This document shows, in pieces, positions 3,101-62,040 of a stretch of 64,000 nucleotides of DNA. Every line of letters begins with the position of its first letter. Position 1 is the stretch's first letter. A program made the translations under genes and the position numbers. The notes below the pieces were generated by a model that made no database searches, was not told where the DNA came from, and saw only the letters and a list, made by a program, of their open reading frames with translations. Origin of the DNA: Fasciolopsis buskii (Eukaryota; Platyhelminthes; Trematoda; Plagiorchiida; Fasciolidae); NCBI GenBank assembly GCA_008360955.1, contig LUCM01006041.1, forward strand, positions 62,001 to 126,000, in the 5' to 3' direction.

Positions 3101-4264
3101 ATGCCCCCTTAAATTCCAAGCATCTTGAGTAGATTCTTCTACCATTCACCAGAGGACATCGTTTTACTTATGTCTACTGCATTAAGGTTCAAGAAAGATT
3201 GAACTATCGTAAACGCGTGCAACTGTTCGGGCATCTTAGTCAGTTTACATCGTCTTCTGTTCCTGCATTATGTGGTAAACTGGAGCGGAAGAATGAAATA
3301 CGCATGGGTGGTACTTACAGTTACAAAAAGTCGGGCCCAAATCGACGGTTTAATCACACGTGAAATTTTCCTGCTCGATAACTCGTAGCTACGCTACAAA
3401 TGCATAAAAGTCGCCCAGGTTTGAAACGAAACAAAATCATGCTCTTCGTATGCTAGTTAGTTGTTTGTTGAATAGGCCGTATAATCAACGGATACCCTGA
3501 GGTTTGGGCGTGTATTTTGCTTTACCGGTCGTTATGCAACACGGCAGTCTGACGGCTCCGGTGGATTTCATGACGTGATGTTGCACGACTGCTTTATACA
3601 AAATAAAGGAAGGGCACATTTCCACCTCCATTATTTAACCGCTTCCGATTTCCATTTCTTATTTGTCCCTTGCCGTTGTCTGGAAAATCTGTTTTTTTAT
3701 TGCCTACTTAGCACAATAACAAAGAACAACATTGTGGAACAGCAGTACGGTGAGTGTATTGTTTCATAACGATTTTCCATCAAGATGTTCCTAGATCACA
3801 TGGGAATAGTGCGGAATAGATTAGACCTTTAGACAAGTATTCGCATAAGTCCTATTGCAACTGTCGCTCGCTTGATTTGTTGAACATAAATCCTCGGCAT
3901 GACACGGGGGAAGTCGTGGTAAAAGGTGAATTACGGAACTTAGAGTGTCTTGACCAAAAGCTTTCAGACCTAGAAGCCCAGCGCCATCTGCAAATAACTC
4001 ATTATTCAATATATCGCCAAAAACCTCGAGAATACGAAACAACGGCTTCAGCCTTGTGGGCCATCATCATCACTGCACCGAAGTTTGGGCACAGATGCAG
4101 GAAAAACACTGATTTAGTTATCTTACGTGTTGCTTCAGAAGTACTTGTTTTCAATGGTTTTTATCTTTTATCTTTTTGCTTCCTTTATTAATAAAGTCAC
4201 AATGTACTTCATTTTCAGGAAGGGGGCCGCGGCTAACAGAGGGCTACCAAGTGGGGAAGTTAAT

Positions 4265-10582: not shown

Positions 10583-12229
10583 ATGTTAAGTTTATTCAGG
10601 GTCAAGACGGTGGTTCATTGGAAAATTTTATAGACCTGCAAACAACAAAAAATTGAACAACGACTTTGGGGCACCAGTTGTGAACGTCGAGTTTCATTAA
10701 CTAGGGAACTGACTTAGTGGTTCATTAATTAGCTTGCCATCTGTTCACACCTATTAATTCGACAAAAATTGTAGTAGTGAAACTGACTGAGAATTCTAAC
10801 GTTATTTCTTTAGCAGTCGGCCATATGCTGAAGACGACAATTCAGATGGATGGATGGACACCTTGATAGTCTACTCTCAGATTCCAATGCAACGTTGCTG
10901 CAGGAAACTAGAAAGACTCTGGCTTTAAAAGCTTATTGTTTCCATAATAAAGGTTTGTAGAAATGTACTATGCACATTATCATGGAAGCGAACACAAAAC
11001 AAAATGAACTTTGTAGATCATTGTGATAAAGCCATCTTTGTCGGGATTGAAATGATACCCACTTCAATGAACTAACAACAGCAAAATGTTGTCTAGGCAC
11101 TAGAATTTACTTCCTTATTAGCTGATGCTCTCGCATTTCAAACTGTTTGAGAGCTTTACCATAGACGATTCACCGATTACATCGCGTAATTCGTTGGTTC
11201 ACAATTCATTGAATTGGCGTGAACTTAGTTGGGGAATTAAGAACTCCAAGCATCTGTCGGTTCTAACATAAAAATCTCGATATAGATTTTGGCCCAGCTG
11301 AAATTTCGCCCTCATCCAGGTATATAAAAGGACTGTTTGGCTTGACTTGACTAGCTTTTGTCAAAACAGTCGTGTCTGGTTAAAACAAACTCTCAGACCT
11401 TGCCCGGCAAATTACTGAATCATCCGAATAACTTCTAATTGTTAGGCGAGTGCTTTACCGCAGCGGAAACTAATGGAATGTTCTATTTGAAATTCAGAGG
11501 TAAATAAAAAGTGAAATGTTATCCACAATGTGCGGAATTGTAAACAAAAATGATAAAATGCAGAGAGATCTCGTTCACTTATTTCATGCTTCTGTACCAT
11601 CTCGAATTAGCTAGCTCTTTCTCAATCACCGACACTAGATCATGCAATATCTATCATTAATATGTTTGACTTCAGGTCACACGTAATCTATTGTCCTATT
11701 AAACAGATTAGAATAATCCCCCACCCTGAATTGCTTGCCTCGTGTGTGTTTTGCTTGCGAGACAACCAAAAACTAACCGAACAGCTTGGATTCACCATAG
11801 AGTGGACTTTAAATTGATTAGCGAACGTTGGTTTCCCTCCAGAAAATATCTCGAAACTCAAAGTGGTTTATGAATTCATCATATTTTTTACTTTGTATCC
11901 TAGATAAAATATAATGTATTATTAAAACTGTTCTATTTATCATGGATCGGGTCACCAGCGTCTCATGAACACCCAGATTCCAAGTTGTTTGTTCACCTGT
12001 TCACTAATAAGAAAGCCTCGCATGCGTTTGCTTATGCCAATCGGACCGCATACAAAATACGAACGATTCGCTTCAATACTGACCAATCAGAGCAATGTTT
12101 GGGTACAAACAAAATAGCCGCACGCCTCGAGAGGTAATTATACAAACGGATGGTAATCATACACTGTACACATAGGATGATGATTACTTTCGACTACCAG
12201 TGCGCTGCAGTACTTCCAAAAGAATTTTG

Positions 12230-12586
12230 ATGAGGCATTGTGCAGGAATTGTGCGAGACCTTGTGTTTCAAAGACTCCACTTACTCGGACTTTTCTTTTT
12301 AATATTTCCCCTAACTCGTTGGTGTGAAGCCAACCAAAAAGAGAATAATTCGATTGACGTGTGGAGTCAACAGCAGCAGCAACAGCAGTCGGAATCTTAC
12401 CCACCCAGTGCGTTTTCGGTCAATACTGCGAATATCGGCACACACGGAGAAGTGCTCATCCCGGATGAACAACGTCTTTTACAGGAAATTCTTAGAGATT
12501 ACGATCCAGCCTCAAGACCAACATATATCGCGTCGAAAAGCGTAAATGTTGGCTTCCAGATGACCTTGATTCAGATAAGTCAACTG
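12230..12586 (+). CDS. nAChR-type Cys-loop receptor subunit, coding exon 1
   Basis: First visible coding exon of a pentameric ligand-gated ion channel subunit, a plasma-membrane acetylcholine-type receptor. It encodes residues 1-119. Residues 1 to about 34 form a signal peptide with hydrophobic core LLGLFFLIFPL. Residues 35-78 are a low-complexity linker with seven glutamines (47-53, from CAA/CAG codons) and a possible N-glycosylation site at N39. From residue 79 comes the extracellular domain start: DEQRLLQEILRDYDP, then VNVGFQMTLIQISQL, a family hallmark. The first ATG in the open frame is at 12230; the frame is also open back to 12176 with a GTG at 12200, but ATG plus the signal peptide decide the start. 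The donor is CTG|GTAAGT, phase 0. An upstream non-coding exon is possible. The long linker between signal peptide and first helix is unusual for the family. Confidence 0.93.
12368..12388 (+). repeat. CAG/CAA repeat encoding seven glutamines
   Basis: Seven consecutive CAA or CAG codons sit in the receptor's N-terminal linker (residues 47-53). The CAA interruptions argue against a freely expanding tract, but length variation between individuals is plausible. Confidence 0.9.
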
Positions 12587-15500
12587 GTAAGTCAACTAAA
12601 AATGGTCTTGAAGAAGCAAGTTGGATCGTCCATTTAAAACTGTTGGACACGGTTGTAGAAAAATGTGTTTTGAGTGTTTTTACCGCAAATGTTCCACTTT
12701 GTTTCTTTTGCCTCCGCAGTAGTTTTGATTGAGTCGGATTACATTGCAACTGACGTTATTTCTCAGCTGGGCTTTTATAATCACTTGGGTTGAGCTTTTT
12801 AACAGCGACAGTAATCAATACAAAGACAACAACAGAAAAAAATTTCTGAATACTTCCGGGTACCCTGCAGAAAATACGCGAATTTATTGAATGTCCTTGA
12901 CCATAACAAGTTTCATGCAGAAGATTAGACAACAAAATGGCGTTCTGCTTGTACAAGCAATGCGACAGCAATACTTACATGATTGTACCCTGCACAACAC
13001 TAGTTTCTAGGTCTGCGTAAAATTTCACAGTCATCATGGTCACAGACACGCAGGATCAGATCAACATTCAACGGTCATCAACCTCATGTCGTAGATCGTC
13101 GAAGTAGTGCTATTGCAGGAAGACAGTTTCGTTGTGCGCGATAAAATCATTTCGGTGATGCGATGTCTCATCATCATGCAGCCACATCCGCGCTCAAATC
13201 CCGTGCACTGAAAAATTGGAATCGTCTGCTCAGCTGTTCTTTTCGTTTTGGTCAAGAACCATCAGTTGTCTATGTTCACTGGGGTCCAATCAAAGAGCTC
13301 GCGTGGAACTAGAGGTTCGAAAATGAGCTGGTTCTCAGCAGTTTACCGAGAACAAAAAAAATGCACCAATCTAGTTTTGGGTTTTTCGCAAGGCCGCAAC
13401 AGTTGGCTAGCAGTACAGCCTCTGTCGGAATGGATAGGCTAATGACCAAGGTATTCCACTACTGTTCTCTCACTCTAGACTGTTTGCTTTGCCACGCAGC
13501 TGAGGAACCGTATTTCTGTCTTGGTGATGATTCTAAGTAAGAGAGGCGAATAACTGTGGTTTGATTTCCACTGGAGGAGAAAGCAATGGAACAATTCAAG
13601 GAACAATTAGGTGCCCCCTGGGTCCAAAAGATTACGTGCCATTTAATTTGCAAACAAGGATGTAAGCAATAATACATACTTCACAAACTTGTGTTCGAAA
13701 TGAATTAACAAAATTCGGGTAGGCAACATTGCCTTCCTTCGAATAAAGTGCAAACTGGGAGAAAATAGCCCTTTCAGGGGAAATATGTTTTGTTAAATGC
13801 AACTGTATAATCAACTAACAAAAATTGAGCACGACAAGGATCATATCACCGGAAAATAAACGGAAAATGTGAATTTTGGTAAACTACCAACGATCGGAGT
13901 TCATGTGTCACGCCAGGTCACGCGTAGTGATTACTTGGGGTAGAAATGGAATTCCTTAGGTTAGATATGCGCATTAGACGAGGATTTGTTGAAAACTGTT
14001 GGCTGTGAATAAAACAAATCGCATGTGTAAAATCTGAGAGCAGGTTGATCCAACTTCTTCATATAAGAACAATGCAAATGTAAAAATAATCATTTAGGCT
14101 ATAAATATGCCAAATCGATCTAGCTTAAAAACAACAGCTCAAAAATAGCTCACATTGATATTTATGGGGTGACACTACTCCTTAACTAATCGCTTTATGT
14201 GATCGATGATTTCACTATTGACGAGCAATAATTTGCATGTATAGGTCTTGTGAATTTCGTTCACGATTAGCCCCAGAAACCATCAGGCTGAAATTTAATT
14301 AGTGAAAAATATGATGCAAATGCTAATCCGACAGTTGAGACGTCAGCTCCTCTTTGAAAACTCTGAATGCTTAGTGGAGCTGTTTCCTCCGGCCTATTAT
14401 GATCCATCGTCACTGAGCAATCGCTGTCTCAAACTACGGTTTTGCCGGTTGAATTCAGTATCCCTATTTCAAGTAATGTCCTTACTATTCATTTAGAATA
14501 AAAACTGAATGACACAACATCTATCCGTTATTCGGTTTCCAAAATTCACTGCCATTCACAAAAGCAATTAGCACTTTTCATTTGTTTAAAATCTGAACGT
14601 TACCAACCAAATAATCATATATTCATCATGCAAACACTTACGACCATCGCGCACCTAATTGAAAATGCCATTCTTCCTCTCAGAAGTTCCAAAAGAAATC
14701 GTTATCAAAGCCACGGAGTTACTTTTGTTTACTTTAGAACATCAGTCTTTATATTGTTCTTGTAGTATCACGAGGACTAGTTTGGTTCAGGGAATTTGTC
14801 TGGAACTCTCTGGTACTCAGCTTTGAAGAAACAGTGCAAAATGAATCACAAACAACGAACTGCTTTCACAAATAGATCACGCAAATCACTCGGCGCTTTG
14901 TCGACATGCTACCGGAAATCCTCAGAGTGGTTTCAACGACTTCCAAACTTCGAAACTGGTGTAATTTTGTCAAGTCTGAGATATTCATTAAGTCGCTTAT
15001 TCGCCCACGCTTTACTTAATTGCGCTTTTCGTATGCGGCCTGGTTCGTTTCTGGAAACCTAACAAGCTGGATAGATTCTGACTGGTGTTGTTGTTTCAAT
15101 TCCTGATCTTATTTGTTTTCTTTCCCAATGGTCAAAATTGATGCGTTTAAGTAAAATAATATATGCAGATTAACTGCAATTGTTCTGTCACTTGGGGATT
15201 CTGTACTAGGTTGGAAGATAGAGAGAGCGAAAGATTGATGAACACAATAGAGTCTTTCATCTTGAGGATGCCAAAAGCTCGGCTGATTTTGGCAACTACT
15301 TTTGGAAAATATTTCATTGCACTTAAACTGTTGCTAACAAAATCTTTTTAATGAAGTGACCCTTGAGATCTGCTCCTTATAAGGCAAATTCTCGCCGGAT
15401 TTTAATTTCATGCTATTGAAATCTTTTCATCAAAACTGAAAAGCAAATGCATGAAACACAAAATAACACTAAGGAACAATTAACGAAATTATTAGGTCTC

Positions 15501-26499: not shown

Positions 26500-27420
26500 G
26501 TGGCTGGGGGTGTTGCATTCTACGGGCAGGCCACACAACATTCACGCCATTGGCTTCGGTTCAGAGCCATATCTCTCAGCCTTTCCAACCAACAACAATT
26601 CTTACCATTTGGGCCCCAACCACGAAGGCGGAAAGTGCCAACCGAGGGCAAACCTGAGACTAAATTCTTCATATATACACGTCACGCCATTACGTGACCG
26701 ACATGTCGTTTTGTTCAGTCTTGTTCAGCACGTACAAATAGAGCACGAAAAGATAGGCGTTGGACAAGCATGCACAATACGTGTCCAAGCCACCGAAGGC
26801 AACGTAGACTGATTATCTCAGTCAGAGGGCCGTAGTCTGCTCTCAGCACACGACGACGCACCTCGTCAAGTGATGTTCTCAACAGACACGAGCAAAGGAT
26901 TGGCGACATCGGTGGTGGAACACAGAAAGGCGCCGGGCATCCTCAACGCGGATAGACCAAGTCTCGCAACCGTAAAGTAGAACATTGCGGACCGTGGCAT
27001 TATGCACCCTTATCTTGAGGGAAATTCGGATGTCATGGCGGCGCCACAAGTGTCGTAGTTTCTCGATACATGCTCTGACTTTCGCAATTCGTGACTTAAC
27101 CTCCTCCCAAACACCTCTACCACGTGTGATCAGGCTCCTGGGGTGCATGAAGCTGTTGATTACCACAAAGGTTGAGTGCAGGTACAGGTCCTTGCCAGTT
27201 TTGAAGAAGTACTTTGCATTTTGAAGGTGCAAAGTACATACTGTATCAAGAGACCTAAATCGCAAAGCGGTCCAACTCGCGTTGAATTGCCTGTGCACTG
27301 TCACTCAGCAAGGAGATATCATCAACACACGCTAAGCCAAAACCCTTATACCATGGGAGGAGTTCAACTCCACCGTCTAGAAGACTCGTCAAACCTGCTA
27401 TAGCTCCGTTTTTATTTGGT
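26500..27420 (-). mobile_element. Dead non-LTR retrotransposon fragment (reverse transcriptase C-terminal half)
   Basis: Minus-strand remnant of a LINE-type reverse transcriptase, broken by frameshifts. From its 5' side: GLACVDDISLLSDSAQAIQ at about 27270-27340 is the palm catalytic block, with CVDD (27318-27329) in place of YADD. Next comes VWEEVKSRIAKVR, RHLWRRHDIRISLK and VLLYGCETWSIRVEDARRL (inside 26879-27304), then after a further frame change EVRRRVLRADYGPL and LRWLGHVLCM (26715-26909). A last block with WGPNG and MALNRSQW lies near 26550-26650. These blocks are in the order expected for the C-terminal half of non-LTR elements common in fluke genomes. The endonuclease and N-terminal RT are absent, so this is a 5'-truncated, inactive insertion within intron 1, opposite to the host gene. 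The clade (RTE-like or CR1-like) is not certain. Confidence 0.85.
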
Positions 27421-33650: not shown

Positions 33651-33750
33651 TTGTTAAACTTGCTTCAAGAATGACTACCCATGCTAGTCGAAATGTTGGC
33701 AAATCGCATCTATCAATAATGCTGTCTGTTAACATTATATCACTCATAAT
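33651..33750 (+). repeat. Dispersed repeat, copy B
   Basis: Second and most diverged copy of the repeat at 77-170 (minus) and 44648-44743 (plus). It keeps the GACTACC-CAT-GCTAGTC hairpin with one broken pair, then GAAATGTTGGC, then the AATGCTGTCTGTTAACATT block. The left arm is changed to TTCAAGAA. It is probably an older insertion of the same family. Confidence 0.65.
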
Positions 33751-43600: not shown

Positions 43601-46600
43601 GCATTCTACCATCAATAATCAGCCTCCATGTCGTGTAAGCAAAAGTGTTTTCCATACTGATTTACTCCAAGAGGTACGTGCCGCAGAGCAAACCGAGTGG
43701 ATGATTGTGAAAAGGCAACTCATCACTTAAAAGCTGAGCTAGATGCTGACCAAAGGCTAACCAGTGTTAGTTTGGTGCACCGAAGACTGCACTCAAGAAA
43801 TATCCGGTTAGAAGAACGAGCTATGACTAGCAATTACCAGTTCATCAGGAACATATTTGGATCCTGTTTAAAAGGCTTGGCCAAAAACGAAAAGTTGTGA
43901 AACGAGGCACGGTGACCATACTGATCAGCCACCCGGAATCATTTCTAGTGGTATTCATAGATGCCAGCATCTTTATATTTTGGAAAACGAACGCCCTAGT
44001 TCATGAACAAAAAACAAAGACTTTTATCTGAGCTGGCGTACAAGTACTAGACAGAACTAATTTTGAAGAGGATTTTGGAAACCACTGTAGCCGAATCTAC
44101 TGATAAAATAAAACTACGAAATGGAACTCACGCAAAGTATATTAAGGGACTAAGGATTAAACCCAGTTGCGGACAGAAATATTCGGTTTGAGAGAGATTC
44201 TCAGTGAATTGTACGATATAAGCGAGGATATAAGAGGCTTGGAAGAAAACAATTTCATCACCACATCTTAATAGAACCATGTATGATGGAACTTAATTTC
44301 TCCAATATGGATAGAGAAAATGAGGCAAAACATCGTGGCAAACCATGAGACCGAAAAGTATTGCCAGCAATGTTCTTCCTTCTTTAAGCCCTGTTTTGTT
44401 TGCTGCATCTAATCAAACTATAGTTCAGCAGCCAGGAAAAACGATCCGCAGAGGAATTAAATAATCCAACTTTCAGGAGACAAAAGAACTAGCGAATCAA
44501 AGACAGAGGACTAAACGGGGGAAAATGCCGCATAAATCCTATGAAATTATTCAAATATTTTGTCATTTGATAAGCCAGACAGACTATGGAAATAGGAGTG
44601 AATCACTTTGGTTTATATGAAAAAAGAGACGGGTAAGGTGTTTTTGATTGTAAAACTTGCCTTGAGAAAGACTACCCACGGTAGTCGAAACGTTGGCGCA
44701 TTACATCTACCAGCAACGCTGTTATTAATATTGTATCATTCATAGGTAAGGTGTTATATTCTAATGTATCTAAAGATTGCTTGTTAAGAAGGACTGAACC
44801 TTTATGAACAGTAGATGTATAGGATACAAGAGAGAATGGATCGAAAGTTTCGGGTGGATGAGGGATTTCGGCAACAGGAATAATCACGATAAATTCACAA
44901 ATCACGAATCCAGCATTTCAGCACAAACTCATTTATCAGCGAAGTTATCGGGGTGCTAATTTGGAGAGCAATATGTGTGATGCAGCAGCGATAGACTAAG
45001 TATTGTATCTATTAAAGAGATAGCTAAAGAGCTTCACAATTCCATTTAGTTAACTTAAATCATGTAGCTTGCAGATAGGCAATAGCTCACAGTGTGCTTC
45101 CAGTTCGCCATTTACGACGACGGTAAGATAGCCAGTCACGTAACGTGAATCTCAAAGAGTCGGCTGATGCGAATATCAGTGGCGTATACTTTCAGCCTCC
45201 TATAAGTAAAAGCAGCCAAATTAATAGTGAAAAGGCATGCGCATGTTCGTATCAATCAAACCGGAACTCTATAGTAGTGCCAGTTAGCCAAGATCATCGA
45301 CAGTGGGTTGGTAACCGGCTAGATGGGTAACCACTGGTTGACTTGGTTCAGACTCACTGAGTGCGCAGTCATAAGTAAGAAGTGACGGCACTCATATGTA
45401 TGTAAGGTTTGTCAATGGCTAGTATTCTTCACCGAAACAGGTCTACCAAAAAGCGTTAGAAAGTTTTCCCTAAGATTAACGTCCCTTCTCGTGTTTCGCC
45501 TATTGAATCAGTGTAAAATGTTCGCAAAAATTCACTTCTGCACCCTGGGTAAACTACAATCCTGAAGTGCCTTACAGTCAGTCTGCGAACTTCAAATCTA
45601 TGAGATTTCAGTGCTATTTTTGGATGGTGCATTCTACCTTATTCGGTTTCAGTGGAAACCATGAGATTCGCTAAGATAGTCGGATCGGCCCAGGAGTAGA
45701 AGGTGATTCTCAACGATCTCCCTGGATCAGGGACAAAAAGATCAGTTTAGATGTCTAAGGCTTCAAATACTGTCTTTCAGGTCTAATTTGGACTGTCCAG
45801 TTACTATTGTGAACATGATACTCCCGACAGCTCTTATTCATCGGCTCGACAGACGTGGATTTCAACCATAGTGGGCATTTCTCCGTTTACTGGACATTTT
45901 TTAAGTTATCATTCGCAACTAATGCTGACATTTGCTTGTGTAGTGAAAAACGCAAAGTGATTATTTTACTGATAATTCAACATTTTCACTGTCACAGTGC
46001 CATCACTGGAGGCGCGTTTGGAAACAACTACGAAGTCGATAAAGTGACAAGGCAGCGGCAATAGTGCAGCGAAACTGGGGTAGTCTGACCTTCTAGAATG
46101 GAGGACACTCAGTGGCAAGTTCAGAATGAGTTGAATTTTTGCGGCTGCCTTGTCATTCGCCATATTTAAACCCGAGCACAATTACAACCGTGTTATTTGG
46201 AGGTGACAAGTGTGCGAAAAGCGTTTTATTTCCCTACACCAATTTCAAGTCAATCAGGCGGGAAGATCTACAAAAAAATGCAAGCGAATCACTACTAGAT
46301 TGTTTTTATCGTATGTTGTCAACTAATCTTCTCTCGTTTCGCGACGGTCTTGCTATTTTCCGTACTGTTTCGAGACGGTCGAAATTAGTTTTAGGCACTT
46401 CAAGGTTATTTGTAACAGCCATCCAACCGACCTGATTAAATCACACTGACATCGATCAGAGACAACCAAATTTACGTGGGGTTCGTTTGCGTGAACGAAC
46501 TGCAAGCTGCATTGTGTATTACTGTATGATTTTCAGGCAAGCATGTGCCCGGAAGATCTCAAGATAGGAAAACATATTTTAACATACCTCATTAAATATT

Positions 46601-47132
46601 TGACACAATCGCGAATAATTTTGCTATGAGTCACAGTAGCAGGGGATTCAAAGGGAATCTCCAAGTGATTCATTGAATGACAGCATCATCCACCGAGACA
46701 CCACGAAAGCACTGTATAGCTGTTTTATCCTCTTTACCGGTGCATATCCATTGCTCCTGAAGAGGGAAGCAACCTCGGGACAAACGACTGTGTCATTACG
46801 CTAACCAAGCCGATTCTCAACGTTTATCAAACATTGACATTGCATAATGCAGTGCCAAAGTCTGTCAATAAGCTTTAAAACACTTTATGAACGGCTCTCA
46901 TGTAAGGAAGAACCGTGTAGAAAGGAAGAACATGACATACAACGGTACAGAATCCTACAACTTGATATTTCGCACTGGAAGTTCCTTCGCACCCGGAAGC
47001 AGAGTGCAATAAAGCAGTTGGGTCACTATTAAATAAAGAATCAAATAATATTCATTTTGAGTGACTGACCAGTTTGTCTGTTTAAAGAGATTTTGTCGGT
47101 GTTCTTATCACTGTCCATTTTCCATGTAACAG
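40634..47132 (+). other. Intron 2 of the receptor gene (6.5 kb)
   Basis: A GTAAGCG...CAG intron, phase 0. Apart from the repeat copy at 44648-44743 nothing is recognised. A run of frames at 43697-43900 and 46139-46435 has no family motifs and lies in intron sequence, so these are left out. Confidence 0.9.
44648..44743 (+). repeat. Dispersed repeat, copy C (best hairpin)
   Basis: Third copy of the repeat also at 77-170 (minus) and 33651-33750. Here the stem GACTACC-CAC-GGTAGTC pairs perfectly over seven base pairs and is followed by GAAACGTTGGC and, after a loop, AGCAACGCTG, so CGTTG and CAACG can pair. The layout recalls stem II, GAAA and stem III of a hammerhead ribozyme. The 5' core TTGAGAA differs from CUGANGA at two positions known to matter for cleavage (C3 and G8), and the base after the stem III strand is not the expected U. 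A derived or dead ribozyme is therefore more likely than a working one. Confidence 0.7.
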
Positions 47133-47242
47133 GAGTGGAACGACGAAAGACTTCGATGGAATCCGGCAGACTACAATAATCTGCGTATTGTCCGAATACC
47201 CTGTGAAAAACTATGGCTGCCAGATATCGTTCTCTACAACAG
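47133..47242 (+). CDS. nAChR-type receptor subunit, coding exon 3
   Basis: A 110-base exon, again the size conserved in nAChR genes. It encodes residues 135-170 plus two bases of codon 171. Visible motifs: [11 protein letters not shown] (residues 135-145), then WLPDIVLYN (162-170), which carries loop A; Y169 is the loop A aromatic residue of the principal face. Acceptor TGTAACAG, donor AG|GTTAGT, phase 2. Odd point: C158 in RIPCEKLW stands where the family often has serine or proline, giving an extra cysteine outside the Cys-loop. Confidence 0.95.
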
Positions 47243-50200
47243 GTTAGTGATCATTGAATGCACACGAATCTTAGGTTTGAAGAAAACAAATTGCGGCTTA
47301 TTTCAGTTAAATATGTGATAACGCACTGACTACTGGTATATAATTGAGTCGAAAGTATGACCACTATGAAAAATGAACGAATCGTGAAGTTTTGCGTCAT
47401 TCGGTTTAGCCCAGTCTAAATTGAAAGTACGGTTGCTTGTGTTGCTAGGATGAGCGTCCAAAGTACTCCCCTGTAAATTAAACCAAGTTCCTATGAGATA
47501 TATCATAGTAGGTGTCGTTTTGTGATAAATCATTACGTGGAATAAGAACGGTGCTCACCAACATATTTCACCAAAAACGCAAGTACAAATGCAAATGAAT
47601 GGTTTTTAGACGAGTAGCACGAACAAACATAGTTTGCTTTCACACAATTATTAAGAAACAGAATGGGTCACTTATTATTACCGTATTTACGATCTCCCCA
47701 GTCAGCTGTCCACACGAATAAAAAGTTCTTTTTTTTTCTTTTGAAATTGGCAATTTCGATTGGAAACGAAGACAAACAGTATTCCGTCAGAGAATGGTTT
47801 CACAGAGCGTGTGTGACGTTTATGTTAAGTACTATGGTGTCCATTTGAAATATAAGGAAATTCCGCGGGATTCCACATAAATTAAAATGATTTGGTTCCA
47901 ACTCGCAAACAATTCCCAGGTTACTGGAATCACTTGTGAGCACCTACTTTGTCACCAACTGCATGCGTTTTCCGACCCTTGTATTGCGATGGAGCCAAAT
48001 AGCGGTTTACAGTTTGTGGTGGAGGACAAGACTAGTCTTGTTGGCCTGCACTTCTGAGAGACTGTAACAAGAAAGGTTAGCGTAGATGATGCACGAATCG
48101 ATCCATGAAACTTATTCCAAAAGCAAATAGAAGTGAATCAGTCGATAGGATCGTTTACCTTGGATGAGATCATTCCACGGTGTTGTTAAATTGACCGACT
48201 TCCAACTTTTCTAACTTTCAGTTAGTACTAATAGGCATAGGACATAAATCAACAACCAATAGAAAAGGAAGCAACATTGAGCCGTTGAGGTGACGGTTGC
48301 CGCAGGTATGATTGGTTGTTGTTTTTCATATTTCTTCTCGGGACAAATCTCGCCAATCCGCCATAAGAAACAACGGAAATGCAGTGAATTCTGACATATG
48401 AATCAGCAACACGGTACTTCTTCTGTCTCCTTTGATTCATAAGAAACAGCTACCCATCGGTCATCTAACGGCCGTTTGTTACCTTGGAAATGCATCTTAT
48501 CGACTGATTTACCCGCAGGTTCCGGTGATCATTTTAATCACATTCATATATGACATTAACCAAACTGTCCAGCATCAATTGTTGTCTGAAATTCGGTTCA
48601 ACTATCATGCCAGTCCATAATGGGATTGTAAATCACCTGGTCGGTAATTATAAGGTGACACGATAAATTGACATTTAAACCAACACACTGTTTTCTTCCG
48701 TTGAAGATTTGTCCATCCATCCGCATAACAAAAATATTGGCGACAAAACCACACTTTCTAAACTTGTCTGTTTTGTGAGAACTAGTTTTGCCTAACTGAC
48801 AAAAACATGCGGCGACTCACCGTGTGATTCTGACGTGGATTCATCAGTCATACACACTTCACACGACTCGCTCAAGATTCTAGGGGTATCCCTATTCGGT
48901 TTAGTGCATTTGAAAATCACACCCGTACCCGTATGAATCGAAAATGGATATGAAATTATCCTTCGTCTTTTTCTGATCGAATTTGTGCTATGTGATTCCG
49001 TTGGTATAAAGCGGACAGAGGTCTTTTGCGAAAGATGTTTAATTTGACACTTAGGGATACATAAAGAGTAAAAATTAAACGGATAAACTCAGTTTAGTGG
49101 CAGAGCATCCGTGCAAGTGACCGGATTCATGGTTAGAGTATGTCACCGCAACCGACATGCATGACCAGTGTTCGCCAACTGTAGTGAAAAGCCTTTTTCA
49201 CAGGTGCATAACTATGCTAAATGAAGGTGTGACGGATGGGTATTGTTAGGTTGGACCTCGTTTCTTTCTTACCTTTGGCTTATTAGCAGTTTGCCATCGA
49301 AAACGTTTGCGCACGTGGCATCACAGACGCATGCTTATCCGGATAAATTTTCTTCCATGTCGGATTTACCCTGGTGTTGCTTAGGAAGCGTTATGACGAA
49401 TGCTGATCTTCGAGTAGTCTAAAGGGTAAAATTCCGGAAAACCAGTAATAGAATTATCTTAAAAGCAAACTGATTCAAAATGTCACTAAATGTTTCGCTC
49501 TTTTTTACTGTCCCTGGTGTATTTTCCTCTGTAAATCGGTTATTTGTGACAGAATTTAGGTCTAGATGATGCTCTATTTAGATTCACCGTCACGGCTTCA
49601 ACATGTGAAGTAAAAATTATCTTGAAAGTAGTTAATACCCTAGCATGCGGTCGAACGTTTGCGCATGAAGTGACAAGAGCGACAATCAAAATCCAATGAA
49701 AGACTGCCTATGGAAATGCCACAGGCGCCTATTTTCAAGATTATCGGCACTTCTTTACACTGCAGTTGATTGAGGCACTTTAATTTTATTCGGCTTGCTG
49801 TCTAAGTAGTTCGTAAAATAACCGCTCATCTGTGCTCATTGTAGATGGACCAGATCGGTTCATAGTAAAGAGAGAGTTAGTAGGAGTTTCGTTTTGGTAA
49901 TTGTGTTCTTTCGCCCGACCTGGTGTTCGAAGGTGAAAAATCAGCGCAACATTCTCGATCGAATTACGACAAATGACCGATCTTCGCCTGTGGTCGGAGT
50001 ATAGAACACTGCTTGATAAATGTCACAGATAAGTTAAGGGGTCTGCAATTGGGTACCGCGTTATTTTTGTCCTAACAATGTTACCAACGGCTATCGCTTT
50101 CACGCTTCGATGCAGAAAAATTTCGTATTTTTGTAAACATATCCGTGATAGCACATCATGGAAACAAAATAGTAGAACGAATCTGATGGAAAAGCGATGA

Positions 50201-50302: not shown

Positions 50303-53300
50303 AGCAAACTATACTCTCTACCAATTATCTTATCTTACCGTACCTTGGCTTCGGCCACCACTCGGCCGTACTGAAAAAAGTAAACAAAAAACTGCGGACG
50401 AACAAAAAGAGCATACTAGGTGGAATGACTTTGATGCAGATGAGCAATTTTGTATGCAATACAACCACAGACTGCGGCCGTTAGTCACATTATTATCATC
50501 CATAGCGGCCCCCTCAAAAATAGGTGTAAAGTGACCGAGCACGCTACTTTTACTCTTTTGGTCTTCCACATGACAAACATCACCCGGACTCGCTTTTAAT
50601 CACGGACTACAACAGTGGGCAACACGCACAGGAGAAGTCTATCGGTAGTCCTATGTTCCACTTTCCCACCACCAGATGCTGCTTACGTGTTGATATCGTT
50701 TTGCGGCTGGCATTGTACAGTGCCATAATGTAGGACCTAATAACAGCAGAAACGACAGGCTGTTTTCCTCAGGCTTATATGCCAACACTGTCGGAGCAAA
50801 GATTCAGAAGATATCGATATTGACCGTAGCAAGCATAAAAATTCAGCGGTCAAATACCGGGCATATGAATTGACGAAGCAACTGATAACGTACAAAACGA
50901 GCTGCCGCCTGTCACTACGGACAACACTTAGAGGGAATGGTAGTTTAATTTCCAATATTTTTCTATTTCGTTATCCAAAGAACACAAAAGTGACGAGATT
51001 TATTGCAAGATATTCCATATACTTCTGTCAAAGATTCCTATCGGCGGGATGACAACACAAATTCACTTCACTTAACTGTAAAAAAAACCTTCGCTGTCGT
51101 GTGATCAATTCACCTGTGACCATTTCGTGCAAGCATATTCATTCGGTACTCATGTATGTAGCTGCAACTGGTTTTTGAGTACCATTCGTTCGGTCTATGA
51201 AATTTGCACAGTCCGTATTTTTCAAAAACCATGTGACGGCAATCAGCGACTCCCATGTTCCAGACATTATGTGTATTCGATTAACCAACTTACTCTCTAA
51301 ACATTTTATTGCATTGTCTTGAATGTATACTTCGATAAGTTAAGAAACTTACATTGCAGTCAACAAAAAAGAACGCATTCATTACTGCACATGGTAAAAA
51401 CTGATACTGGCGACGTGGAAGCAGAAAAAGATTGGACATTAAACAATCCACGATCAGTTATGAAAGTCTAAAAGCAGTTCTACCATAGTTTATTCCTTCT
51501 CAACCATAAACACTGATGCGGGACGGAAAATGTTTATACTTTGAACGAATAGATATATGTGAGCGATGAGGAATGCACATCGTTATGTAAAGGATGGGTA
51601 GGATTTGGTAGAATGTCCTTGGGAAATGTTTCGCAGGCCTCGATGTCTAAGCCATATATTTCATCAAGAAAATAGCCAACAGAAATGGAATAAACATGAC
51701 AAAAAACCTTGCCCAGTAAGAAAAGACGGTCCTCGAACAGACCCGGAAAATAACCGAGGAGCATTAGGGTAAAACAGGGAGAACACACTGATCGACAAAA
51801 AGGTAACAGCAGTCTGACCTACGCCGAAGTGTCTCGGTTTACGGATTTGAAAAGGCAAGCAACATATTCGTATAAGAATTTCGAATATACAAAAGGACCA
51901 ATGTAGATCGGTGCAAATTGTGACATCTAAATAGTTTACTGATTCGAGTATGGGAAGGGAACGTCATCAGTCACCAAATGTTCACTAATGAAAAGCGCGC
52001 GGGAAACTGTGAAACGGTGTCCAAAATAGGTAGATGTATTAGGGTAAGGACCGAAATGTGGAAAAGAGTTTCGAACTATGCGCAAATTTCCTGAGAGAGA
52101 TGTAAAGTCAAACTGATTGGACGTTTACTGAAAGAGTAAGACCCCATCGGCATAGCTGAGAAGTGAAATATGTTGATCAGCAGACAAATCACTGAGGTAA
52201 CTAATGAAAGGATGAAGTGAAAAAGCTCCTTGAAGAACATCGGAGTTGGTAAGTAAGAAAATAGGTAATTGAAAACCAACCATGGTTGGTTGAGTTCTAT
52301 CGAAAAAGTGGCCTGTAAACCATAATAGTGTGGGACGGAGCCATCTGAAAGACTAAAGCTTAGGGAGAAGATGAAGATGGAAACGGATTCAAATGCAGCG
52401 CAATAATCCAAAAAAAATTGGCGGACTGATTTCATGGAGGTGTTTAAACATTTAGGAACGAGATGCCAGATTGAGGCAACTGTATTCAGAGCACATCTGT
52501 TTGGCTTACACTTAGAATGAAATAGATAATTAGTGAACGCAAAGAGGGAACGCAGGCGACTGAGAACAGCAAGCCCAGGTAATTTAGGCGCAGGAAGCTT
52601 AGATGAAATATCGGAGTTTGTGTGTCTGGGGATGGGAACAACCGTAGAAGTTTTCCACTGAGCCAGTACAACACCGGCCACAGAAGAATTGTTGACGAGC
52701 GCATCCATGAAGTACGACAGCGAAATTGGCCTTGATTTGACAGGAGAGATACATAGGCTGTCTGGACCAACAGAAGATGCATTGTTGAATATTCCCTCTG
52801 CAGAAAATGGTTCGAGTTCTGAAGAAACAGGTGTTGTACAGGGTGGTAAGGTGACGGAAGATGGATGAATAAATGCGGTATACAGAATGTTGACATCTAC
52901 ATCGGTGACCGAAAGAGATACCGGCACAGAAGCTTGGTTCTGGGTCAAAGAGTTTTACTATCAGAAGTTTCTAAAAACTGATTGATGAAGGACAAGTTCA
53001 AGAAGTTTATCTTCCGTCTGACTAAGACGGAGTAGTGTCAAAGGGGCTTAGTCATGAAATTCATAGACAGTTTTCCTTAGTTTGCTGAGGGATTTCATTA
53101 AAAGTGCTATCCCACTTTTAGTATAGAATTTGGTCTCAATGCGACAGCGTAGGTCAAAAATTGCATCCAAAGCATTTGTGAATGACTTAGGCGCAGAGAT
53201 GGAGTGTTCAAAGAAATACCAAAAAGATACGCCAGAGAGGGACGGCTGAAGCAGGCAAATATTTGTGTAATGCGGATTCTTTGTCTTAGGCTTGATCAGT

Positions 53301-53630
53301 TTCTTCCTGACAGATAAATGGGTAAAGTATGATTACATGTTGGGTCTTAGGGAAGTGAGAGTGATCAATAGACGAAAAAGTATCCTGCAATTGTGAATGA
53401 TACAGTATGATTAGCGATTACTCTGACTAAAATTGCCTTGTCGCCGATAGGTATAAGACATAGGTCAGCTAAGCCAAAAGAGAGTTAGGGATGGGTAGAA
53501 GCGTGGTTGGACTCACAAATGGCAAAGAATAAACGGTCAAACAATGGCAGTAGAAGAATAAGTATTAAGGCATTGTAGAAGAGACTGATATCATGAATTA
53601 AACAAATCAGAGCAATGCACACATTACTAA
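50303..53630. repeat. 3.3-kb direct duplicate, copy 1 (left of the gap)
   Basis: From AGCAAACTATACTCTCTACC to CACATTACTAA this segment matches 53641-57019 end to end in the same orientation. Differences are mostly single-base insertions and deletions, often in short homopolymers. The copy ends at the first N. That geometry fits the end of one contig overlapping the start of the next. Biological tandem duplication would need a gap placed exactly at the junction by chance. Confidence 0.95.
51480..53450 (-). mobile_element. CR1/Jockey-like non-LTR retrotransposon (copy 1)
   Basis: Minus-strand reverse transcriptase of a LINE-type element. The 290-codon open frame 52076-52948 carries NNASSVGPDSLC, WKTSTVVPIPRHTNSD and FLDYCAAFESVS, matching RT fingers and palm blocks (the last corresponds to the FLDFSKAFDSVS pattern). 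Further 3', KPRHFGVGQ, DIEACETFPKDILPNPTHPL and the final region near 51500 are the C-terminal part common in fluke CR1-like elements. Toward the 5' side, NALDAIFDLRCRIETKF and KLRKTV near 53060-53200 are the pre-RT linker. The catalytic block reads YADG at 52143-52154 instead of YADD, in another frame than the 290-codon frame, so the copy is frameshifted and probably inactive. Part of the frame damage may be sequencing error. Confidence 0.85.
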
Positions 53631-53640
53631 NNNNNNNNNN
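53631..53640. other. Assembly gap (10 N)
   Basis: Ten N bases join two contigs. The length is a placeholder. The 3.3 kb to the left and the 3.3 kb to the right are the same sequence, so the true gap is probably negative. Confidence 0.98.
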
Positions 53641-56600
53641 AGCAAACTATACTCTCTACCAATTATCTTATCTTACCGTACCTTGGCTTCGGCCACCACT
53701 CGGCCGTACTGAAAAAAGTAAACAAAAACTGCGGACGAACAAAAACGAGCATACCTAGGTGGAGATACTTGATGCAGATGAGCAATTGTATTCAATACAA
53801 CCACAGACTGCGGCCGTTAGTCCACATTATTACATCCATAACGGCCCCTCAAAAATAGGTGTAGAAGTGACCGAGCACGCTACTTTTCTCTTTGGTCTTC
53901 CACATGACAAACATCACCCGGACTCGCGTTTTAATCACGGACTACAACAGTGGGCAACACGCAACAGGAGAAGTCTGATCCGGTAGTCTATGTTCCACTT
54001 TCCACCACCAGATCGCTGCCTGTACGTGTTTGATATCGTTTTGCGGCTGGCATGTACAGTGCCAAATAGATGTAGGACCTAATAACAGCAGAAACGACAG
54101 GCTGTTTTCCTCAGGCTTATATGCCAACACCTGTCGGGAGCAAAAAGATTCAGAAGATATCGATATTGAACCGTAGCAAGCATAAAATTTCAGCGGTCAA
54201 ATACCGGCATATGAATTGACGAAGGCAACTGATAACGTACAAAACGAGCTGCCGCCTGTCACATACGGACAACACTTAGAGGGAACTGGTATTTAATTTC
54301 CAATATTTTTCTATTTCGTTATCCAAAGAACACAAAAGTACGAGATTTATTGCAAGATATTCCATATACTTCTGTCAAAGATTCCTAATCGCGGAATGAC
54401 AACACAAATTCATACTTCACTTAACTGTAAAAAAAAACCTTCGCTGTCGGTGATCAATTCACCTGTGACCATTTCGTGCAAGCATATTCATTCGGTACTC
54501 ATGTATGTAGCTGCAACTGGTTTTTGATTACCATTCGTTCGGTCTATAAATTGTGCACAGTCCGTATTTTTTCAAAAACCATGTGACGCAATCAGCGACT
54601 CCCATGTTCCAGAACATTATGTGTATTCGATTAACCAACTTACCTTCTAAATCATTTTTATTGCATTGTCCTTGAATGTATACTTCGATAAGTTAAGAAA
54701 CTTACATTGCAGTCAACAAAAAAGAACGCATTCATACTGCACAATGGTAAGAACTGATACTGGCGACGTGGAAGCAGAAAAAGATTGGACATTAAACAAT
54801 CCACGATCAGTTATGAAAAGTCTAAAAGCATTCTACCATAGTTTATCCCTTCCTCAACCATAAACACTGATGCGGGACGGAAAAGTTTATACTTTAACGA
54901 ATAGATATATGTGAGCGATGAGGAATGCCACATCGTTATGTAAAGGATGGGTAGGATTTGGGTAGAATGTTCCTTGGGAAATGTTTCGCAGGCCTCGATG
55001 TCTAAAGCCAATATTTCATCAAGAAAATAGCCAACAGAAATGGAAAAACATGACAAAAACCTTGCCCAGTAAGAAAAGACGGTCCGTCGAACAGACCCGA
55101 AAATAACCGAGAGCATTAGGGTAAACAGGAAGAACACATCTGAGCGACAAAAGGTAACAGCATCTGACCTACGCCGAAGTGTCTCGGTTTACGGATTTGA
55201 AAAGGCAAGCACATATTCGTATAAGAATTTCGAATATACAAAAGGACCAATGTAGATCGGTGCCAAATTGTGACATCTAAATAGTTTACTGATTCCGAGT
55301 ATGGGAAAGGAACGTCATCAGTCACCAAAATGTTCACTAATGAAAAGCGCGCGGGAAACTGTGGAAACGGTGTTCCAAAAATAGGTAGATGTATTAGGGT
55401 AAGGACCGAAATGTGAAAAGAGTTTCGAACTAATGCGCAATTTCCTGAGGAGAGATTTAAGTCAACTGATTGACGTTTACTGAGAGGTGAAGTACCCCAT
55501 CGCATAGCTGAGAAGTGAAATATGTTGATCAACAGACAAATCACTGAGGTAACTAATGAAAGGAATGAAGTGAAAAAGCTCCTTGAAGAACATCGGAGTT
55601 GGTAATAAGAAAAATAGGTAATTGAAAAACCAACCATGGTGGTTGAGTTCTATCGAAAAAGTGGCCTGTAAACCATAATAGTGTGGGACGGAGCCATCTG
55701 AAAGACTATAAGCTTAGGGAGAAGATGAAGATGAAACGGATCAAATGCTCAAGCGCAATAATCCAAAAAAAATTGGCGGACTGATTTCATGGAGTGTTTA
55801 AACATTTAGGAACGAGATGCCAGATTGAGGCAAATGTATTACAACAAGACATCTGTTTGGCTTACACTTAGAATGAAATAGATAATTAGTGAACGCAAAG
55901 AGGGAACGCAGGCGACTGAGAAACAGCAAGCCCAGGTAATTTAGGCGCAGGAAGGCTTAGATGAATATATCGAAGTTTGTGTGTCTGGGATGGGAACAAC
56001 CGTAGAAGTTTTCCACTGAGCCAGTACAACACAGGCCCAGAAGAAAAATAGTTGACGAGCGGATCCATGGAAGTACGACAGCGAAATTGGCCTTGATTTG
56101 ACAGGAAGAAGTAACATAGGCTGTCTGGACCAACAGAAGATGCATTGTTTGAATATTCCCTTGCAGAAAATGGTTCGAGTTCTGAAGAAAAGGTGTTGTA
56201 CAGGGTGGTTAAGGTGACGGAAGATGATGAATTAATGCGGTATACAGAAATGTTGACATCTACATCGGTGGAACGTAACAGAGAGAAGATCCGCACATGA
56301 AGCTTGGTTCTGGTCAAAGAGTTTTACTATCAAAGAATTTCTAAAAACTGATGATGAAGGACAGTTCAAGAAGTTTATCTTCCGTCTGACTAAGACGGAG
56401 TAGTGTCAAAGGGGCTTAGTCATGAAATTCCATAGACCAGTTTTCCCTAGTTTTGCTGAGGGATTCATTAAAAGTGCTATCCCACTTTTAGTATAGAATT
56501 TTGGTCTCAATGCGACAGCGTAGGTCAAAAATTGCATCCAAAGCATTTGTGAATGACTTAGCGCGCAAGAGATGGTGTTCAATAGAATACCAAAAAGATA

Positions 56601-57019
56601 CGCCAGAGAGGACGGCTGAAAGCAACAAATATTTGTGTAATGCGGATTCTTTGTCTTAGGCTTGATCAGTTTCTTCCTGACAGATAAATGGGTAAAGTAT
56701 GATTACATGTTGGGTCTTAGGGAAGTGAGAGTGATCAATAGACGCAAAAGTTCCTGCAATTGTGAATGATACATAGATAGCGGCGGAAAGATCGGGATGA
56801 TTGCTGATTTTTTGTCTAAAATTGCGTTGTCCCTGACAGATATAAGACATAGGTCAGCTAAGCCAAAAGAGAGTTAGGGATGGGTAGAAGCGTGGTTGGA
56901 CTCACAAATGGCAAAGAATAAACGGTCAAACAATGGCAGTAGAAGAATAAGTATTAAGGCATTGTAGAAGAGACTGATATCATGAATTAAACAAATCAGA
57001 GCAATGCACACATTACTAA
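53641..57019. repeat. 3.3-kb direct duplicate, copy 2 (right of the gap)
   Basis: It begins on the first base after the gap with the sequence found at 50303 and ends where copy 1 is cut off by the gap; unique sequence follows (ATGATCGTACC). It is about 50 bases longer than copy 1 because of many small insertions. One patch (about 56771-56844, against 53402-53455) differs more strongly, with extra bases in this copy. Confidence 0.95.
54830..56870 (-). mobile_element. CR1/Jockey-like non-LTR retrotransposon (copy 2)
   Basis: The same element as at 51480-53450, but frames are broken into many short pieces: LPAPKLPGLAVSQS, SFLSLVTSVICLLIN and DIEACETFPKEH occur in separate frames. The palm block is frameshifted (CTATGCGATGGGG instead of CTATGCCGATGGGG). 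Since the two copies differ mostly by indels, much of the damage may come from unpolished long reads rather than evolution. Probably not an independent insertion. Confidence 0.75.
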
Positions 57020-58018: not shown

Positions 58019-58329
58019 AAATGTTGAAGATAATAATGATATAATCCACTTTTGCACAAAGACTGAAACTGAGAATATATCCAACAGTAAATTCGTCGGT
58101 TAGGTAAAATGAGTCATGTTTTCCGCTACATTCCATAGCAGCTATGTAGCACATTGTATTCTGATGCAACACGCTTTCGTAGGTGTGCGACAGGAAGATG
58201 GCTAGATAGTAGATAGATAAAGAGATTAAGTGTATTGGTAGGTCACATTAACTACACATCCCAGCTGCACTAACTGGGCTCCAGATTCATTTTTTGTTGT
58301 CCAACTCCTACCTGCCTTTTCCTAAACAG

Positions 58330-58527
58330 CGCAGATGATTACACCAGCGGATACATGCAAATCAAGGCCATGGTGCATAGCACAGGCAACGTGTTTTGGT
58401 CACCACCAGCCAAACTGCGTTCTGCCTGCAAGATCGATATAACCTACTTTCCGTTTGATGACCAGTCGTGTATGATGAAGTTCGGTTCTTGGGCTTACGA
58501 TGGATGGCAGCTAAATATTACTAAAAG
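58330..58527 (+). CDS. nAChR-type receptor subunit, coding exon 4 (Cys-loop)
   Basis: Encodes the rest of codon 171 through residue 236 and two bases of codon 237. ADDYTSGYM (172-180) continues loop A; FWSPPAKLRSACKI leads into the Cys-loop, C204 and C218 separated by 13 residues with the core YFPFDDQ (210-216), the signature of the superfamily. GSWAYDGW (223-230) is loop B with W225, the residue that makes the cation-pi contact with acetylcholine in this family. N233-I-T is a potential N-glycosylation site. Acceptor CCTAAACAG, donor AAAAG|GTAAGT, phase 2. Alpha or non-alpha status cannot be decided, because loop C (paired cysteines or not) is outside the window. Confidence 0.96.
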
Positions 58528-58949
58528 GTAAGTCTGATCAGTGGAACAAGTTGTGGTAATTAATTGGTTTTGGAATCCATTCATAAGTTTGCAGTAGAAC
58601 TTTTAGTAATGATTGTCGACTTACCAACGCACTATACTATGTTCCTGATTAGATCATAAAGATCGGTGTCCTGGATTTACAGAGATGACTGTTGCAAGTT
58701 GAAGCTAAGAGGTGGTGAAAAGCTTGCAAGGACTTCGTTTCGATCCGGTAAGTTATGAGATAATGAAGACAGACGGTGTCTGGCAAAAAGGACTGTCCAA
58801 CGAGACCGTTTTCACCTAGGTAAATGTCGCACGAGGTAAAGACCTGAGCTACTGGTAGCCAGAAGGCAGACGGGGAACGAAAAGCTCAGCATAATGCCGG
58901 AGTGAGGAAAAAGTGGTCCGATTTTGTGATGAGCTCAGTGGCAAACGGG

Positions 58950-60350: not shown

Positions 60351-62040
60351 CCTGAATTCAAAAGTACTGGCTTTATGGAACAGTTATGCTATATTTGTCG
60401 TACCAGTAAAGGATTATTCAGGCGAATCCAAGAGCACCATACGGCTTGGTTGAGCAAGTGAATCACCAACACCGTTGGAAGCTCAGTTGTTTAACGCCCG
60501 GTCACTAAGGGCAATCAGTGGGCAAGGGAAATTCATTCACGGTCATCCAAGGAAATTCAGGACATCCATCTGATTGATTTAATCAAGAACATTGTTTAAT
60601 GCCTTAGTAAAGCGATAATGGTACGAATTTGTAATCCTGAACCATGTGAATAGGAACAATTGCTTCACAATTTGCAAATTCACTGGCGAAATTAACGATA
60701 GTCGATACGTTGAATAACCCAATTAACTGTCAGTGTAAGGTACCAAGTTTTCTTTTCAAATATGAGAACTGAAATCCCTTAGTTGGCTTAAGGCTGATTC
60801 CGCTGGAAGACTTCTTTGATCCATGAATATACTCCATGACCAACAGGAACCCTGCACTAAGATTAACAGGGGTTCGTTCTCCGATGTCCAGACTAGCCTG
60901 TAGGATGTTGAGCGCAGTAGAGCTGATTCACTATATAACCTGGGCAGAATAATTGACGGTGATTACCTACTAAACGAGGTTACAAATTCACGTCAAGTGA
61001 ATACAAATGGTGTTCTCTCCCCTGGCTATCTCGTAAAAAAAGGAAAACCGAATTAAAAAGGTGACGTGCAAAGTAACTGGCTGTTGCATTAGTGCTTTTT
61101 CGGATGTGAGGATGGTAGTTGGGTTAGCGATCACTGTTATTTGGCTTTACTATTTGTATCCGCATCTGTCAGATATAAAGGTCACAAAATGACAACAAAT
61201 TATGATTGGTTGCGAATGAATAATCTGTTTACCTATTAAGAGGAGTATCTCTAAATAATAGAAGTTTTGAGTACTTAGGTAGTTTGTGAGGCTGTGGTCA
61301 GTTTACTAGGTCTTCCGGCATCTAGCATTATTTCCCTTTGCTAACTCCGAGTTCTTGAAACTCTCTTTTGAACGTTTTTTAAATATGTAAATGGAACTGC
61401 AATTTAATTGCGCTGAAAGGAAACCAGTCAAATTCAACCATTAATTACTGTTTAACAATTCAAAACACCCCTTTCACTCACGAGTTAGGCATCCAACAAA
61501 TCGAACCAGATTATAGGTGGCCTCATCGAATTCCTCACTGGTTGGATTTCTAATAAAATAATACAGTGTCGAGGATAAAATTTAATCAATTCATTGTGTA
61601 CGAGTATTTCAGCAAAGGACTGCCCCACAGCCATGCATTCAAAAGTAGGAGGAATAGTACTGTAAATAAAGACCATGTAAAATTGTATTTTCTGATAAAA
61701 CCAATATTTAAATATATGCATACATGTGCATATACCTACATTCGTGCGAATTCTACAAGAATGTAGTTTAAGCATTCTAATCAAATTATTCTATTGCACA
61801 GCTCAAAGGAACAACCAAACAAGTTTTGATTCCAGACTAAAGCCATTTGTAGAACTATCCAAGTGTGAATAGCATCTGCCATCGGAGGCACGGGATGTAA
61901 CACATGTTTGCTTTGTCAGGTGAGCTACGATGGTCCCGACGAATCCTTCGGGAAATTCAGCTCTTATAGCCATGCTGCGAACTTTCACTGTTTTTGATGC
62001 CTTGTGTTTAGATAATTTAGGCAGGTGTTCAATGGCCCTC

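Follow-up and report, generated by a model that had tools for sequence, protein, structure and literature searches.

A 3.3-kb intronic direct repeat in the Fasciolopsis buskii assembly is most likely an unmerged contig overlap

Introduction

A stretch of a genome assembly can appear twice without being duplicated in the organism. In the excerpts of Ko et al. 2022 (PMC9516828) considered here, one form of this error is the homotype false duplication, a duplicate left uncollapsed through errors accumulated in (long) reads. That study counts a scaffold gap separating the copies among its criteria. The counterpart caused by haplotypes, the false segmental duplication, is described in the corresponding excerpts of Kelley and Salzberg 2010 (PMC2864568).

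Here we analyze a 3.3-kb direct repeat in the trematode Fasciolopsis buskii. The window, meaning the whole stretch of DNA that was analysed, is 64,000 nucleotides long and covers positions 62,001 to 126,000 of contig LUCM01006041.1 (G000:C3566:62001-126000 in our own numbering). The locus resembles a homotype false duplication as presented in the excerpts of Ko et al. 2022 (PMC9516828), in that the copies would be uncollapsed because of errors and have a scaffold gap between them. No difference from that description was seen in a comparison made apart from the depth and k-mer criteria. The locus is unlike the false segmental duplications in the excerpts of Kelley and Salzberg 2010 (PMC2864568), where the cause is haplotype difference, whereas here the differences resemble read errors. 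The 3.3-kb doubling is most likely an ordinary assembly artefact and not a real duplication.

Results

A self-comparison of the window by blastn (E 1e-5) found one long repeat, in which 50303-53630 matches 53641-57019 at 93.3% identity. The only run of N in the window, ten bases long, lies exactly between the two copies. It adjoins the end of the left copy and the start of the right copy directly, and the alignment spans the full length of both. An earlier note on this DNA had placed the repeat, with its 10-N gap, at 50303-57019, and had stated that the copies stop and start precisely at the gap and can be aligned in full; blastn and a global affine alignment bear out both statements (Table 1). 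The left and right copies share their final ten bases, and the copy termini read AGCA and CTAA. A frame of 290 codons is contained in the left copy. At the same threshold, the window contains just two further matches, each of 95 bases, which come from a short dispersed repeat found at 77-171, 33651-33745 and 44647-44741. Its copies differ mostly by substitutions, with 10 mismatches and no gap in one match and 19 mismatches and 1 gap in the other.

Table 1 Features of the repeat and of the surrounding channel gene, in window positions
Feature	Position	Strand	Basis
Earlier PF02931 match, E 3.8e-5, below the Pfam cut-off	12200-12637	+	Pfam profile search
Ligand-binding-domain match, PF02931 profile 49-92, left of the repeat	47112-47243	+	G000:C3566:109112-109243
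Left copy, the more accurate of the two, running up to the gap	50303-53630	+	Self-comparison and global alignment; relatives favour left in 65/79 scored events
Gap of 10 N, sole N run in the window	53631-53640	.	Window self-comparison and N scan
Right copy, error-rich part; right boundary approximate	53641-56840	+	Alignment and votes of relatives
Right copy, clean end, equal to 53452-53630 (final 179 alignment columns)	56841-57019	+	Alignment
Ligand-binding-domain match, PF02931 profile 84-162, right of the repeat	58304-58537	+	G000:C3566:120304-120537

On either side of the repeat lies an exon match of a ligand-gated channel gene. The distance from one match to the other is 11,060 bases and shrinks to 7,671 once one copy is removed together with the gap; both figures are measured between profile matches and not between exact intron borders. 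The gene, which encodes a Cys-loop ligand-gated ion channel (PF02931), is seen in three pieces on the plus strand. It extends over more than 46 kb and has long introns.

No further 10-N gap was found in 250,000 more bases from two contigs (25 stretches), so recurrence of the artefact has no support there. The N that did occur in these stretches were two isolated ones and the opening part of a long run. That run lies on the same contig as the window and comprises at least 4,684 N (G000:C3566:205317-210000, joining 9317-10000 of L033 to 1-4000 of L034). Either a gap of estimated size or sequence that was withheld may account for it. A literature search on 10-N negative gaps found no paper.

Globally aligned, the two copies occupy 3448 columns and are 93.7% identical. 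They differ by 29 substitutions compared with 152 indel events, 139 of which are one base long, in agreement with the earlier observation that the differences are mainly indels. These counts are from affine alignment, and three affine settings each gave 29 substitutions. Counts from mafft (260 mismatches, 71 gap events) were discarded because neighbouring indels had been paired as substitutions. Transitions and transversions are about equally common (14 and 15). The left copy has 85 gap events that sum to 120 bases, and the right copy has 67, summing to 69 bases. One-base indels fall next to an identical base in 86 of 139 cases, compared with 45-47% for random indels, a moderate excess (P 3e-4). 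The first 83 and the final 179 alignment columns are without any difference. At the interior difference rate, the clean final stretch has a probability of 3e-5. The clean start is less telling (P 0.008), and one clean run in the interior, of 119 columns, is longer.

Older relatives in the same genome provide a yardstick for these counts. The genome (703,196,239 bases, 6974 contigs) was searched with bases 1 to 2698 of the left copy. This gave at least 47 matches, consisting of the self-match, one to the right copy (94% identity) and at least 45 further matches at 64-76% identity; the count of relatives is a lower bound, since 40 of 71 candidates were scored. Among the matches listed from these scored candidates, there is no third copy above 76% identity. 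Loci were returned for six of the 45 other listed matches. Over the longest match of each of these six to the left copy, which was the query, mismatches total 972 and gap openings 57. The substitution/indel ratio thus differs sharply between copies and relatives (Fisher P about 4e-113). With relatives rich in mismatches set against copies rich in indels, it follows that the left and right copies do not differ like sequences that evolved apart.

The same relatives bear on the content of the repeat, which the earlier note had called a retroelement. Their number and level of identity indicate that the stretch contains old interspersed-repeat sequence, and to this extent the claim stands. No reverse-transcriptase family was matched by Pfam in the open frames scanned, which are broken and represent part of the stretch. 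The repeat had no match in the PDB. That its content is a retroelement is likely but unproved. Elsewhere in the window, a 141-codon open frame on the minus strand (26879-27304) shows a weak match, below the cut-off, to PF20049 (DUF6451). We take this frame to resemble the end of a retroelement polymerase.

The relatives also indicate which copy carries the errors. The differences between the copies were grouped into 155 events, 79 of which could be scored, in the sense that one or more relatives sided with either version. Support went to the left version in 65 events and to the right in 10, while 4 were split (P 5e-11 for 65 of 75). The left copy had been the query that found these relatives, so the vote was repeated using only those blocks of alignment that the right copy retrieves from the same relatives. 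This second vote gave 27 left, 7 right and 2 split (P 8e-4 for 27 of 34), a restriction that reduces the left-query bias without removing it. Interior match scores favour the left copy as well (185 versus 102 bits for relative L003; 153 versus 74.3 for L005). The comparison is mixed toward the right end, where the right copy scores better against L006 (84.2 versus 63.5 bits), equals the left copy against L003 (77.0 bits for both) and scores worse against L004 (65.3 versus 81.5 bits) and L005 (65.3 versus 88.7). Three of the ten right-favouring events fall at alignment columns 3226-3254. Taken together, the votes and the interior scores show that most of the scorable errors sit in the right copy, whose first 3.2 kb (53641 to about 56840) hold most of them, not all. 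The left copy itself is not error-free, given the ten scored events that back the right version.

Discussion

We conclude that the repeat is very probably an unmerged dovetail overlap, one end of which was poorly corrected, that is, a homotype false duplication and an assembly artefact. The indel-dominated differences and the geometry, with ten N exactly between the copies, both point to this reading. The differences have the character of sequencing errors, judging by the substitution/indel ratio, the relatives and the one-sided polarity. An unmerged contig overlap is what the earlier note had proposed, and the geometry, the excess of indels and the polarity toward the right copy all support it.

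Under an unmerged overlap, a 3.3-kb stretch of the intron, partly old interspersed-repeat sequence, would be present once at the locus. The left piece would extend fairly accurately through this stretch to its end at the gap. The right piece would open with the same stretch in a poorly corrected, long-read-like state for about 3.2 kb, would turn clean near 56841, and would then agree with the left piece over the final 179 bases. The errors would have masked the overlap, so that the two pieces were placed one after the other, separated by a placeholder of ten N. We infer that the sequence originates from long reads and that the ten N mark a gap whose estimated size was zero or below. The noisy stretch would be either a contig end or an addition by a gap-filling program, two origins that look the same here.

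Two diverged haplotypes of one locus, placed consecutively as a heterotype false duplication, would yield the same geometry, and heterotype duplications are reported to be the major source in the assemblies studied by Ko et al. 2022 (PMC9516828), as the excerpts describe them. Alleles are expected to differ mostly by substitutions, however, and here indels exceed substitutions five to one. Alleles should also lie about equally far from their relatives, with differences spread over both copies, but most of the scored changes belong to a single copy. This one-sidedness argues against two haplotypes, and likewise against two equally good contig ends. We consider the haplotype reading very unlikely.

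Assemblies often break at interspersed repeats, and the stretch is related to such repeats. A real tandem duplication, or a pair of long terminal repeats, whose junction holds a sequence gap is in keeping with this relation. Yet the gap would need to hit the junction exactly, with neither copy losing any sequence, and small indels would have to make up almost all the change in one of them. Long terminal repeats usually end in TG and CA, whereas the ends here are AGCA and CTAA. The probability that we give to either form of this explanation is tiny. That a real, recent tandem duplication arose inside the channel-gene intron, with one copy decaying almost only through small indels, is barely credible.

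The unmerged overlap matters to users of the assembly only. For them the intron would be about 3.4 kb too long and an old repeat would be counted twice. The bases of the right copy would be unfit for dating or comparison. The substitution/indel ratio measured against old relatives, together with the vote of those relatives, offers a read-free way to spot a duplicate made by errors.
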